From Bacilli bacterium (GTDB taxonomy: Bacteria > Bacillota_I > Bacilli_A > RFN20 > CAG-826): a stretch of 64,000 nucleotides of DNA. Shown here piece after piece: positions 17,844 through 22,605 of this stretch (positions are counted from its first letter, which is position 1; each line of letters starts with the position of its first letter). The stretch lies in NCBI GenBank assembly GCA_024399115.1, contig JAKSHZ010000003.1, positions 62,001 through 126,000 of the forward strand. The letters run 5' to 3'. The notes beneath the pieces are model-generated. The model was given only the letters and a program-made list of their open reading frames with translations. It had not been told where the DNA came from and ran no database searches. Made by a program: the position numbers and the translations under genes.

Positions 17844-18647
17844 TTATGCTCTTAAATCAGAGAATGAGTAGTTAACAGTTGGACCGAATGTTGATTCGAT
17901 GAATGTTTTAACTGCTGGTTGAGAAAGTGCTTCAACTAAGACATTTGTCTTTTCTGAGTTAACGTTTTCGTTTCTAGTTGCAATGATGTTTGGATAAGCA
18001 ACTTCAGTGCTTTCTCCTAAGATTTTATAGTTTGTTGCAGTTGCTGTATCCCATGCATTTAATGCATAGTTTCCTGGGATAACTGCGTATCCACCATCGC
18101 TTACGTGTCTTGCTAATAAACCACTATCAACACATTCAATTGTGACATTAATGTCTGATGTATAAACTGGATGTTGTTTATCAAAGTTTTCAACTGAGTA
18201 AGTTTTGATAATGTTATTGTCGACGAGGAGCTTATAAGCTCTTTCGACGTTACTAGCGTCGTCGATAATGTAAACTTTCTTATCGGTGAAGTCAGTAGTT
18301 TTTACTTTTCCGTATAAGTTAAGAGGTTCATTGTGAACTGTGCAAACTGCTGAGATTTCATATCCATAATCTACGATTTGTTTTTCAATGTATGGAATGT
18401 GTTGGAAATAGTTAGCATCAATACTTCCATCGTTGAGTGCTCTATTAGGTAAGACATAGTCTTGGTACTCTTTTACTTTTAATTTATATCCTTTAGATTC
18501 GATATAACTTTTGACTGCTTCTGAGTTTAAGATTTCTGAGTGAGGTGAAGGGCTAGCACCAACAACGATTGTTTTTGCATCGTCTCCACAAGCTACTAAA
18601 GAACCTGTAACTCCTAATAATACGAATAATTTTGTGATATGTTTCAT
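17844..18647 (-). CDS. metQ: MetQ, methionine-binding lipoprotein
   Basis: Substrate-binding lipoprotein of the methionine ABC importer (NlpA family). The lipobox is LVACGDD. The family pattern is clear: IVVGASPSPHSEIL near the mature N-terminus, NRALNDGSIDANYFQHIPYI and GGYAVIPGNYA. At 267 residues it is full length. It is the last gene of metN-metI-metQ, two bases after metI. Expression of the operon is expected to follow the leader-peptide attenuator before metN. D- or L-methionine or close analogues are possible ligands. Confidence 0.93.
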   Translation of the reverse strand: MKHITKLFVLLGVTGSLVACGDDAKTIVVGASPSPHSEILNSEAVKSYIESKGYKLKVKEYQDYVLPNRALNDGSIDANYFQHIPYIEKQIVDYGYEISAVCTVHNEPLNLYGKVKTTDFTDKKVYIIDDASNVERAYKLLVDNNIIKTYSVENFDKQHPVYTSDINVTIECVDSGLLARHVSDGGYAVIPGNYALNAWDTATATNYKILGESTEVAYPNIIATRNENVNSEKTNVLVEALSQPAVKTFIESTFGPTVNYSFSDLRA

Positions 18648-18649
18648 AA

Positions 18650-19309
18650 TTAAATTTTTCTCCTTTTATCAATTTTCTTTGCGATTAGTAAGCATCCTTC
18701 TTGGATAACTTGAACAATTAAGATTACAAATAACAAGCAAATCCACATTGATGTTGAATCATCGTTATAGTAACCAAAGTTGAATGATTGAGCAATCAAT
18801 CCGCCTGCGGCGATATTACCAGCGAAAGCTGTGTAACCAATGATTGATACTGTTGTAACTGCAAGACCTGTAATTAATGATGATCTTGCTTCTGGGAGCA
18901 ATACTTTAAAGACAATTTGTCTATTAGTAGCACCTAAGCTTCTAGCGGCTTCAACTACACCGCTATCGACTTCTGCTAATGATTGTTCGACAACACGAGA
19001 TACAAATCCAAATGCTGCGAATGTTAGAGGGATAATCATTGATGACCAATTGCCACTCCAATTTCCTTTTCCTAAGACTAAGTTGCTTAATGGGATTAAG
19101 ATGACAATTAACAATAAACAAGGTATGGAACGTAAGATATTGACGATTCCGCCTACTATTAAGTTAACTGGTCTGTTAGGAATTAGTCCCTTTTTACTAG
19201 TAATGTTTAATAAGATTCCAATTGGAAGACCTATTACATAAGCTAGGAAAGTTGAGATTAAAGTCATCAATAATGTTTCGCCTAATGAACTAAATAATAT
19301 CTCTGCCAT
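18650..19309 (-). CDS. metI: MetI, methionine ABC transporter permease
   Basis: Integral membrane permease with five hydrophobic segments. The coupling motif EAARSLGATNRQIVFKVLLPEA that contacts the MetN ATPase lies at about residues 120-140. Length (219) is normal. Its ATG overlaps the last base of the metN stop region, showing translational coupling. Confidence 0.93.
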   Translation of the reverse strand: MAEILFSSLGETLLMTLISTFLAYVIGLPIGILLNITSKKGLIPNRPVNLIVGGIVNILRSIPCLLLIVILIPLSNLVLGKGNWSGNWSSMIIPLTFAAFGFVSRVVEQSLAEVDSGVVEAARSLGATNRQIVFKVLLPEARSSLITGLAVTTVSIIGYTAFAGNIAAGGLIAQSFNFGYYNDDSTSMWICLLFVILIVQVIQEGCLLIAKKIDKRRKI

Positions 19310-20049
19310 TATTTGACCTCCAATCTCTTGAATTCAATGAATCGCTTTGCGATATCTGATTGTGGATTTTTAAATATTTGCTCCACATCTCCTTCTTCAA
19401 CGATGTGAGCTTCATCAAGTACTGCTACTTTATTGCAGATGCTATATATGACGCTCATGTCGTGAGAGATAAGAATGATTGTTACTCCAAATTTCTTATT
19501 AATTTCGAGAAGCAATTTTAAGATTGAATCTGTAGTTTTTGGATCCAAAGCACTTGTTGCTTCATCACATATTAAGTATTTTGGTGAATTTGCAAGAGCT
19601 CTTGCGATTGCGACTCTTTGTTTTTGTCCGCCACTAAGTTCTGATGGATAAGAGTTTGCTTTATCTTCTAAGTCAACTAACTTTAATAATCTAGCGACTT
19701 CTTCTTTTATTGTGTTTTTATCAACACCATTTAATTCAAGTGGGAACGCCACATTTTTAAACACTGTTCTTTGTTCCAATAAGTTGAAGTTTTGGAAGAT
19801 AGTTCCGATGTTCTTACGCATTCGTAGGAGTTCTTTATTATTAATATTTAAGATTTTTTGTTCATCTACGATAATTTCGCCGCTTGTAGGTTTCTCTAAC
19901 AAGTTAATGCAACGAACTAGAGTTGATTTTCCAGCACCAGAAAGACCAATAATTCCAAATATATCTCCATCATTTATTTTGAGAGAGATATCTTTAATGG
20001 CAGTTATTGTGTTGTTATATGTTTTTGTAATATTAATTAACTCTATCAT
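19309..20049 (-). CDS. metN: MetN, methionine ABC transporter ATPase
   Basis: Energises methionine import. Walker [10 protein letters not shown] (about residues 36-44), Q-loop FQNFNLL, signature LSGGQKQR, Walker [13 protein letters not shown] and the switch His in LISHD are present. At 246 residues it lacks the C-terminal ACT-like (C2) domain that in longer MetN proteins binds methionine and inhibits transport, so allosteric feedback is probably absent and control may rest on the attenuator. It starts behind AAAGGAGGTCC. Confidence 0.92.
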
Positions 20050-20068
20050 TTTGGACCTCCTTTAAATT

Positions 20069-20096
20069 AAAAAAGCTCGGGAAGTTTTTCCCGAGC
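20069..20096 (-). terminator. Attenuator terminator of the metNIQ leader
   Basis: On the minus strand GCTCGGGAA, a 4-base loop and TTCCCGAGC are followed by six T, ending 20 bases before the metN start codon. The 5' arm is also the 3' arm of a competing antiterminator. Confidence 0.92.
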
Positions 20097-20143
20097 GTCA
20101 TAAGCAGTGATGTAAGACTAAAAGTCCGTGCTTATTGCTCGGG
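20090..20143 (-). promoter_or_regulatory. Antiterminator hairpin of the metNIQ leader
   Basis: CCCGAGCAATAAGCA (20143-20129), inside the leader-peptide coding region, can pair with TGCTTATGACGCTCGGG (20106-20090). This uses up GCTCGGG, the 5' arm of the terminator, so the two structures exclude each other. A ribosome that reaches the leader stop codon covers the 5' arm and favours termination; one stalled at the Met codons leaves it free. Confidence 0.88.
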
Positions 20144-20183
20144 TAGTACACATCATTTGCATCATCATCATAACTTGTTTCAT
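20118..20183 (-). CDS. Methionine-rich leader peptide of metNIQ (21 aa)
   Basis: Short open frame starting MKQVMMMMQMM and ending STDF before TAG. Six of residues 5-11 are Met, a run with no likely structural purpose. It begins 11 bases after AGAGGA, a usable ribosome site, and lies 60-130 bases ahead of metN. With the competing hairpins it has every part of a ribosome-mediated transcription attenuator sensing methionyl-tRNA. I see no SAM riboswitch or T-box consensus here. Function inferred from layout, not shown. Confidence 0.88.
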   Translation of the reverse strand: MKQVMMMMQMMCTTRAISTDF

Positions 20184-20213
20184 AAATCGGTGTGTCCTCT
20201 TTTAGATGCTAAT

Positions 20214-20243
20214 ATTATATAGAAAAACAAATTGCCAAAACAA
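20214..20243 (-). promoter_or_regulatory. Promoter of the metNIQ operon
   Basis: TTGTTT (20243-20238), 18-base spacer, TATAAT (20219-20214) on the minus strand. It places the transcription start about 25-30 bases before the leader-peptide ATG. Confidence 0.65.
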
Positions 20244-21577: not shown

Positions 21578-22504
21578 TTATCTTAAAGATATAAAACATT
21601 CCTTTACAAAAAATTCTATTAAATCTTCTGATCTATCCTCGTAATATTCTAAGAGTAATGTTTTATATTCTTTTATTTTTTCTACTGGAACCACCATTAA
21701 GCCAACACCATGACTAATCAAAAAATGATTTCCAAAAATTACTGCAGTTCGTTTATTTCCATCAATAAAAGTTTGCGTTTTCATCGTATATGCGATTAAT
21801 CTAGCAGCTTTTGTTGGGAGGTCGAACTTAGCGTTATTTATAATATATTCAATATCTTCTTTAACTTTGAACTCAAAAGGAATTGGAGGGATATAAGAAG
21901 AACCTCCGATTGTGACTGTTGTTGATCTAATCTTTCCTGCATTATATGAAATTCCTTCTTCGACCAAAGCATTAATTTGGCACAATAAGGCATAATTAGT
22001 AGGACAGCATTCTACATCGTAGTCCATAATAAATTCCCAAGCATGTTTCAAATTGATAATTTTTTGAACATCAAGAGTAGACATATCACGGACTTTACCT
22101 TCGTTAACAATGGTCTCGGTATCCGAATAAGTCGTAGCAACACCCTCAAGAATAGATTGTTTATAAATAGAATCGACTAGATTTCTGCGCGCTAAATCAA
22201 TATTTAATAATATTTCATCTTCAATTTCTTTATCTGTGTCAGGAAAATCTCTTAATTCTTTTTCTAATTCTTTAAGCCTTTTCTTTAATTCTTTTACTTT
22301 TATATTGTTACTCAAAATAAGGTTATATAGTTCATCACTATATTCTCCGACATATTTTGTTTGAAGAATTCCACTATTTCTAAAATGAACATAAATATAT
22401 TTCTTATTTTCTTTTTGACGAATTTCAACTGATCCATAGAATAAATTATCGATGGTAGTTTTAATTGTTTCTATTTGATTTTTAAGTGCTAATAAATTAT
22501 CCAT
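21578..22504 (-). CDS. Fic-domain protein with Gln in place of the motif His
   Basis: Fic proteins transfer AMP or another nucleotide moiety to target proteins. The start is ATG 22504, directly behind GGAGG; an earlier in-frame ATG at 22525 has no ribosome site. Residues 60-90 form a charged coiled coil. QSILEG (near residues 116-121) resembles the inhibitory-helix motif of autoinhibited Fic proteins. The Fic loop reads QTFIDGNKRTA (residues 244-254): the DGNKR anion site is intact, but the catalytic His of HxFxDGN is Gln. It may have lost or changed chemistry, or belong to a Doc/Fic branch with another base. Two 35-bp repeats upstream suggest autoregulation. Confidence 0.82.
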   Translation of the reverse strand: MDNLLALKNQIETIKTTIDNLFYGSVEIRQKENKKYIYVHFRNSGILQTKYVGEYSDELYNLILSNNIKVKELKKRLKELEKELRDFPDTDKEIEDEILLNIDLARRNLVDSIYKQSILEGVATTYSDTETIVNEGKVRDMSTLDVQKIINLKHAWEFIMDYDVECCPTNYALLCQINALVEEGISYNAGKIRSTTVTIGGSSYIPPIPFEFKVKEDIEYIINNAKFDLPTKAARLIAYTMKTQTFIDGNKRTAVIFGNHFLISHGVGLMVVPVEKIKEYKTLLLEYYEDRSEDLIEFFVKECFISLR

Positions 22505-22515
22505 AGATACCTCCG

Positions 22516-22605
22516 TGTGAAACATTTTTAAGTATTTTGTTACACATATACTATCATGCTTCTATATAAATGTGAAACATTTTTCTGGCTTTTGTTACAC
22601 ATATA
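22516..22605. repeat. Two 35-bp direct repeats upstream of the Fic gene
   Basis: Copies at 22516-22550 and 22571-22605 share TGTGAAACATTTTT, a 6-7 base variable core and TTTGTTACACATATA, 55 bases apart. Each copy is itself an imperfect inverted repeat (TGTGAAACA / TGTTACACA). They cover the likely promoter, so they look like operators. Confidence 0.7.

Follow-up and report, generated by a model that had tools for sequence, protein, structure and literature searches.

A putative ribosome-mediated attenuator built on a conserved methionine-rich leader peptide upstream of metNIQ in a Bacilli bacterium

How is a methionine importer controlled when the region ahead of its operon matches neither a T-box nor an S-adenosylmethionine (SAM) riboswitch? 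The question is raised by the metNIQ operon of a Bacilli bacterium (assembly GCA_024399115.1, contig JAKSHZ010000003.1), which lies in the window examined here, the whole 64-kb stretch of DNA analysed. We propose, with a probability of about 0.86, that the element preceding metN controls the importer by ribosome-mediated transcription attenuation in response to the supply of methionyl-tRNA. At its centre is an open reading frame (ORF) of 21 codons, MKQVMMMMQMMCTTRAISTDF followed by a stop (20118-20183 on the minus strand, stop included, as are all features below unless stated otherwise), which carries six internal Met codons and is placed between a promoter-like site and an intrinsic terminator, 68 nt upstream of metN. 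A first-pass annotation had pointed to such a Met-rich frame, and its claim holds, as the Met run is absent from shuffled sequences and homologues occur in three more genomes.

The 3′ half of the ORF contains CCCGAGCAATAAGCA (20143-20129), which is able to pair with TGCTTAT-GAC-GCTCGGG (20106-20090) as a two-part antiterminator. In the first part, P1, the 5′ arm CCCGAGC (20137-20143, leader codons 14-16) is identical across homologues and pairs with 20096-20090, while in the second, P2, ATAAGCA (20129-20135) pairs with TGCTTAT (20100-20106). The 3′ arm of P1, GCTCGGG (20090-20096), also serves as the 5′ arm of the intrinsic terminator GCTCGGGAA-AAAC-TTCCCGAGC-TTTTTT (20069-20096). This hairpin spans 20096-20075 with nine pairs, six of them G-C, precedes six T at 20074-20069, and is the richest in G-C pairs among nearby terminator-like sites. 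The two structures are mutually exclusive, and one arm of the antiterminator lies within the ORF. Taken alone, the antiterminator folds at -20.9, -21.3 and -21.9 kcal/mol in the window and two other distinct leaders, against -16.3, -13.1 and -12.1 kcal/mol for the terminator, and the fold of the full leader RNA has a z score of -5.1 relative to shuffles. A small hairpin, GACT-TTT-AGTC (20116-20126), encloses the leader stop TAG (20120-20118), and the 12-nt GGACTTTTAGTC at this site is identical across homologues. The competing hairpins and U6 tract named by the first-pass annotation can thus be read from the sequence, and they are conserved as a unit with the ORF upstream of the metN of relatives.

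This arrangement suggests how the switch would operate. When charged tRNA-Met is scarce, a ribosome translating the leader would slow at the Met run and leave CCCGAGCAATAAGCA free to pair with TGCTTAT..GCTCGGG as the latter emerges from RNA polymerase; the antiterminator so formed would block the terminator and metNIQ would be transcribed. With ample methionine, the ribosome would proceed across codons 12-21 and cover the antiterminator arm and the small hairpin during emergence of GCTCGGG, upon which GCTCGGGAA would pair with TTCCCGAGC and transcription would end.

The Met run of the leader ORF exceeds chance. Among 3,720 dinucleotide-shuffled 300-nt metN upstream regions, none contained a short ORF with at least five internal Met codons and 11 reached four; 3,000 shuffles of the window region itself gave at most four, as compared with six in the real ORF. 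Real metN upstream regions that lack a Met leader have 0-3 internal Met codons, and the leader ORF has the highest Met density among the short ORFs of the window.

Homologous leaders were found by collecting metN homologues from 279 genomes of the order and 295 of the phylum, from which 94 upstream regions were classified. The carriers are the window, genome G194 (MNYITMMMCMMMFTTRAYSTDF, then a stop) and genomes G061 and G197 (MVTMMKNMMMRMMLLTRAVGRDF, then a stop); the leaders of the last two are nearly identical and were counted once, giving three distinct sequences. Local alignment scores among the three are 74-120, whereas shuffles reach at most 31 and other metN upstream regions at most 35, so the leaders are homologous without the help of a covariance model. 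A covariance model matched only these four leaders within the order and found no new homologue in 395 genomes across the class or in 316 genomes of the order of G312, and a search of viral contigs with the exact core pattern found none. Weak covariance-model matches (L096-L099) were rejected, as no Met-rich leader stands ahead of a methionine gene there. Downstream of the leader, the order metN-metI-metQ is found in the window, G194 and G197, whereas in G061 metN-metI is followed by the end region of the contig.

Within these sequences, CCCGAGC/GCTCGGG is invariant, and P2 shows a single covarying pair (A-U, U-A, U-G) besides one pair that changes from A-U to G-U. All antiterminator pairs form in each of the three, as compared with 27-42% when the pairing is slid. 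Loss of the Met run or of compensatory pairing in relatives had been set beforehand as a possible refutation; the run is kept, and compensation is seen at one pair of P2, with P1 invariant.

We then placed a ribosome footprint on successive codons and computed the free-energy gain at the point where the shared arm GCTCGGG has emerged and the terminator is incomplete. For the window leader, the modelled gain reaches -9 to -13 kcal/mol while one of Met codons 5-10 occupies the A site, and shrinks to about -1 to -5 after the ribosome has advanced to codons 12-21. Averaged over A-site positions on Met codons and on other codons, the gains are -11.7/-4.5, -10.9/-4.0 and -10.6/-3.8 kcal/mol for the three leaders (rank test of Met versus other codons, p = 0.0004, 0.0002 and 0.002). 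In all three sequences, then, the antiterminator is most favoured in the model when a Met codon fills the A site and collapses past the Met run. This geometry fits the earlier proposal that a ribosome stalled at the Met codons would leave the antiterminator arm free. Its counterpart, that a ribosome at the stop covers this arm, stands in part: a ribosome on the stop codon masks P2, at AATAAGCA, together with the GACT hairpin, and about five bases of CCCGAGC stay free.

Several observations weigh against the attenuator. Only three distinct homologous sequences are available, all from draft assemblies, and covariation alone is no proof of the structure, because P1 never varies and a single P2 pair covaries. 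The leader has a ribosome site of its own, as the first-pass annotation stated (AAAAGAGG, 20196-20203), but its AAGAGG lies 12 nt ahead of the ATG and is of only fair quality. Once the window RNA is finished, the terminator is the more stable structure at every ribosome position; in RNA that carries no ribosome, the antiterminator is predicted to prevail up to completion of the terminator, unless TACATCA pairs with the Met codons. The dominance of the terminator in full-length RNA, together with the partly free CCCGAGC at the stop, implies that the switch must be kinetic rather than a matter of complete masking, and kinetic control is generally held for known attenuators. The Met codons can pair with the segment that follows the stop hairpin and precedes P2 (in the window, TGATGTG with TACATCA), giving a possible protector hairpin, which would let untranslated RNA terminate and is of a kind that occurs in trp-type attenuators. 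The window and G194 sequences pair better here than shuffles do, whereas the G061 sequence does not (p = 0.02, 0.03 and 0.65), so that the pairing is supported in two of the three. A further pairing, of CTAAAAG (20205-20199) with CTTTTAG at the ORF end and stop codon, would be perfect; CTAAAAG is present in all homologues, and because it is invariant in all sequences the pairing is unproven.

Alternatively, the conserved hairpin core could act as the aptamer of a small, so far undescribed riboswitch that responds to methionine or SAM, with the Met-rich ORF incidental. The 12-nt GGACTTTTAGTC and CTGCT are invariant, alternative hairpins would serve a ligand switch equally well, and no Rfam family matches the leader. 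Pairing, the stop codon and coding nevertheless account for the invariant bases, and the unpaired nucleotides that separate the hairpins vary freely. At least six Met codons ahead of a methionine importer are not incidental, and they coincide with the antiterminator-permissive window in three sequences, which leaves the aptamer improbable.

Two further explanations concern the Met run itself, and we regard both as slightly less probable still. The first makes the run a slipping ATG microsatellite ahead of a terminator with fixed-rate read-through, in favour of which is its form, (ATG)n-X-(ATG)n with n differing among relatives. The interrupting codons differ (CAA, TGC, CGT), however, while 6 or 7 internal Met codons and the frame to the conserved stop are retained, even though the spacing after that stop varies by 1-6 nt, and shuffles never attain the Met count. 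The nascent Met-rich peptide might alternatively arrest the ribosome in response to a metabolite or drug rather than to tRNA charging, and peptide-driven arrest is known from TnaC and the macrolide leaders. Although the C-terminal TTRA-STDF is partly conserved, it overlaps the conserved RNA arms and stop, so that conservation at the RNA level suffices; moreover, Met count is kept rather than a fixed motif, and relatives have a tRNA-reading T-box at the same gene. Attenuation by a ribosome reading Met codons therefore remains the explanation that we prefer.

In this order, metN is usually controlled by a T-box. Among the 39 metN upstream regions examined there, 32 have a T-box by sequence pattern, four have a Met leader and three have neither. 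The AUG specifier GAACATGG is found in 30 of the 32, and Rfam confirms ten of the T-boxes with scores of 99-140 bits. These T-boxes likewise read tRNA-Met charging, and leader and T-box never occur together upstream of one metN. In the window leader, Rfam detected no riboswitch or T-box at the gathering level or at E up to 10; the T-box model RF00230 had no match in the window, whereas relatives reach 140 bits, and no covariance model of SAM riboswitches matched upstream of the window metN. The nearest Rfam match to the leader, Termite-leu, is noise (13 bits versus a cut-off of 51). In the source genome, G000, a 2.13-Mb draft of 188 contigs, T-boxes precede tyrS, valS and alaS (named from protein starts) and a polar amino-acid transporter, none in a Met context. 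The last of these (L130, G000:C106), before a polar amino-acid ATP-binding cassette (ABC) transporter, was rejected as a Met T-box, its specifier being GAACGCC with no AUG seen. Some genomes of the class have metN under the control of a SAM (S-box) riboswitch.

To place the leaders in evolution, we used a tree of 64 MetN proteins. The MetN of G000 and G194 group with the T-box-controlled L065 (support 97/87), and those of G061 and G197 with the T-box-controlled L081 and L091 (99/85 and 99/90). The leaders are homologous, yet the metN genes downstream are not sisters; at least one exchange of leader and T-box has therefore probably taken place, for which recombination upstream of metN is a possible route. 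The leader-metNI segments of G061 and G197 (L135/L136; G061:C67 and G197:C135) are near-identical in genomes of two families and are found on short contigs, downstream of a fragment of an IS200-like transposase, so that recent transfer and misbinning are both possible. G061 also carries a second metNIQ, with a Met T-box.

A tentative reading, to which we give slightly less than even odds, treats the leader as a mobile regulatory cassette. It would have replaced a Met T-box in at least two metN lineages, keeping the tRNA-Met charging signal but sensing it by ribosome stalling in place of tRNA binding, with Met leaders also having arisen independently in the class. G444 and G550, of another order of the class, have unrelated Met-rich leaders, MMMFMCAFKTKA and MMMFMCALNTKA, before metN (L203:693-731, plus strand, and L205). 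These candidate independent Met leaders have a good ribosome site, GGAGG, and a strong, 10-bp terminator; an antiterminator could not be defined, and such an ORF is not very rare by composition (at least three internal Met codons in 2.7% of shuffles). In Synergistaceae, an ORF that ends in MNITSSMIMMCGCIIHT and a terminator GCGGGGAG/CTTCCCGC stand ahead of one metN (L013:2765-2935, plus strand); they are absent from the close relatives L010-L012, L014 and L015.

The leader likely has its own promoter, TTGTTT (20243-20238) and TATAAT (20219-20214) separated by 18 nt (20214-20243 overall). The -10 box is a perfect match and places the expected RNA start near 20207, although a promoter consensus scan by itself is not significant in this AT-rich region. 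The upstream gene, a lactaldehyde reductase-like alcohol dehydrogenase, has a terminator-like hairpin of its own at 20304-20276, and the leader therefore probably begins a separate transcript. Further upstream, 21578-22525 (minus strand) encodes a protein with a FIDGNKRT motif, typical of Fic domains.

Behind the terminator, the metN ribosome site AAAGGAGG (20056-20063) precedes metN (19309-20049), which encodes a methionine ABC transporter ATPase of 246 aa. Its best match is TIGR02314 at 333 bits, below the full-length cut-off and covering positions 1-242 of 343, and the C-terminal NIL domain was not found in the window MetN by Pfam. The permease gene metI (18650-19309; best match PRK10782 MetI; BPD_transp_1) and metQ (17844-18647), for an NlpA-family substrate-binding lipoprotein (best match PRK11063 MetQ; Lipoprotein_9, E = 2e-46), follow. 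The NIL domain is absent from the MetN of the window and of G194 (L064) and present in longer MetN relatives, and protein-level feedback inhibition by methionine may therefore be missing. The first-pass annotation had tied the short MetN to control at the transcript level; this link is rejected, as the leader-bearing G061, G197 and G444 retain the NIL domain.

Gram-positive methionine control is known via S-boxes, T-boxes or proteins. Leader-peptide attenuators are known or predicted in Firmicutes for other amino acids: those for His precede hisS/hisZ of bacilli (PMC2965389) and the his operons of Erysipelotrichales, the Bacillus cereus group and Peptostreptococcaceae (PMC9413887), and a mutant-supported peptide controls ilv-leu of S. 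aureus (PMC5794164). The His leaders resemble the window leader in that a short ORF carries consecutive cognate codons and is combined with terminator and antiterminator, where a T-box or repressor is missing; they differ in the amino acid and in serving biosynthesis or synthetase genes, and the likeness is one of design rather than of compared sequence. In the ilv-leu case a leader peptide likewise governs an amino-acid operon of a Gram-positive bacterium, but the codons are Leu/Ile and the operon is one of biosynthesis. In Streptomyces lividans, metL was proposed as a Met leader peptide before the same operon, metNIQ; it has 29 codons with few scattered Met, is leaderless, and its authors found no typical Rho-independent terminator (PMC8079986). 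A survey of Actinobacteria reported no RNA control of methionine operons (PMC1262725). T-boxes control methionine transporters and biosynthesis (PMC7058034, PMC3771891), including one before the met operon, with methionine transporters, of L. lactis (PMC7058034) and one preferring initiator tRNA (PMC3771891). The Met T-boxes of L. lactis and of the order relatives resemble the window leader in reading tRNA-Met charging, in antitermination and in their downstream genes, but bind tRNA directly through the AUG specifier, need no translation and show no sequence relation. The S-box differs by binding SAM. Text searches of the literature, with subscription papers outside their coverage, found no other Met leader peptide. 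The first-pass view that Met leader attenuation is not well described in Firmicutes thus stands, the weak proposal in S. lividans aside; leader peptides as such are known there. The novelty is a well-supported Met-specific leader peptide, argued here from anatomy, conservation and geometry, rather than leader-peptide attenuation itself.

Among the amino acids served by leader-peptide attenuators, methionine has so far stood apart. Because close relatives place a T-box at the gene that has the leader here, two sensors of tRNA-Met charging can be compared directly on the same operon. The MetE C-terminal domain (PF01717) and the S-methyltransferase domain (PF02574) were not detected in the four leader-bearing draft genomes and were detected in G444 and G550. 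In these drafts their lack is only suggestive of methionine auxotrophy, which, if true, would render the importer essential. The leader also raises the question of how an attenuator functions when its signal amino acid is needed for starting translation of the leader. For a methionine sensor of this type, severe starvation would also halt fMet initiation, so the attenuator would have to act sensibly without a loaded ribosome.
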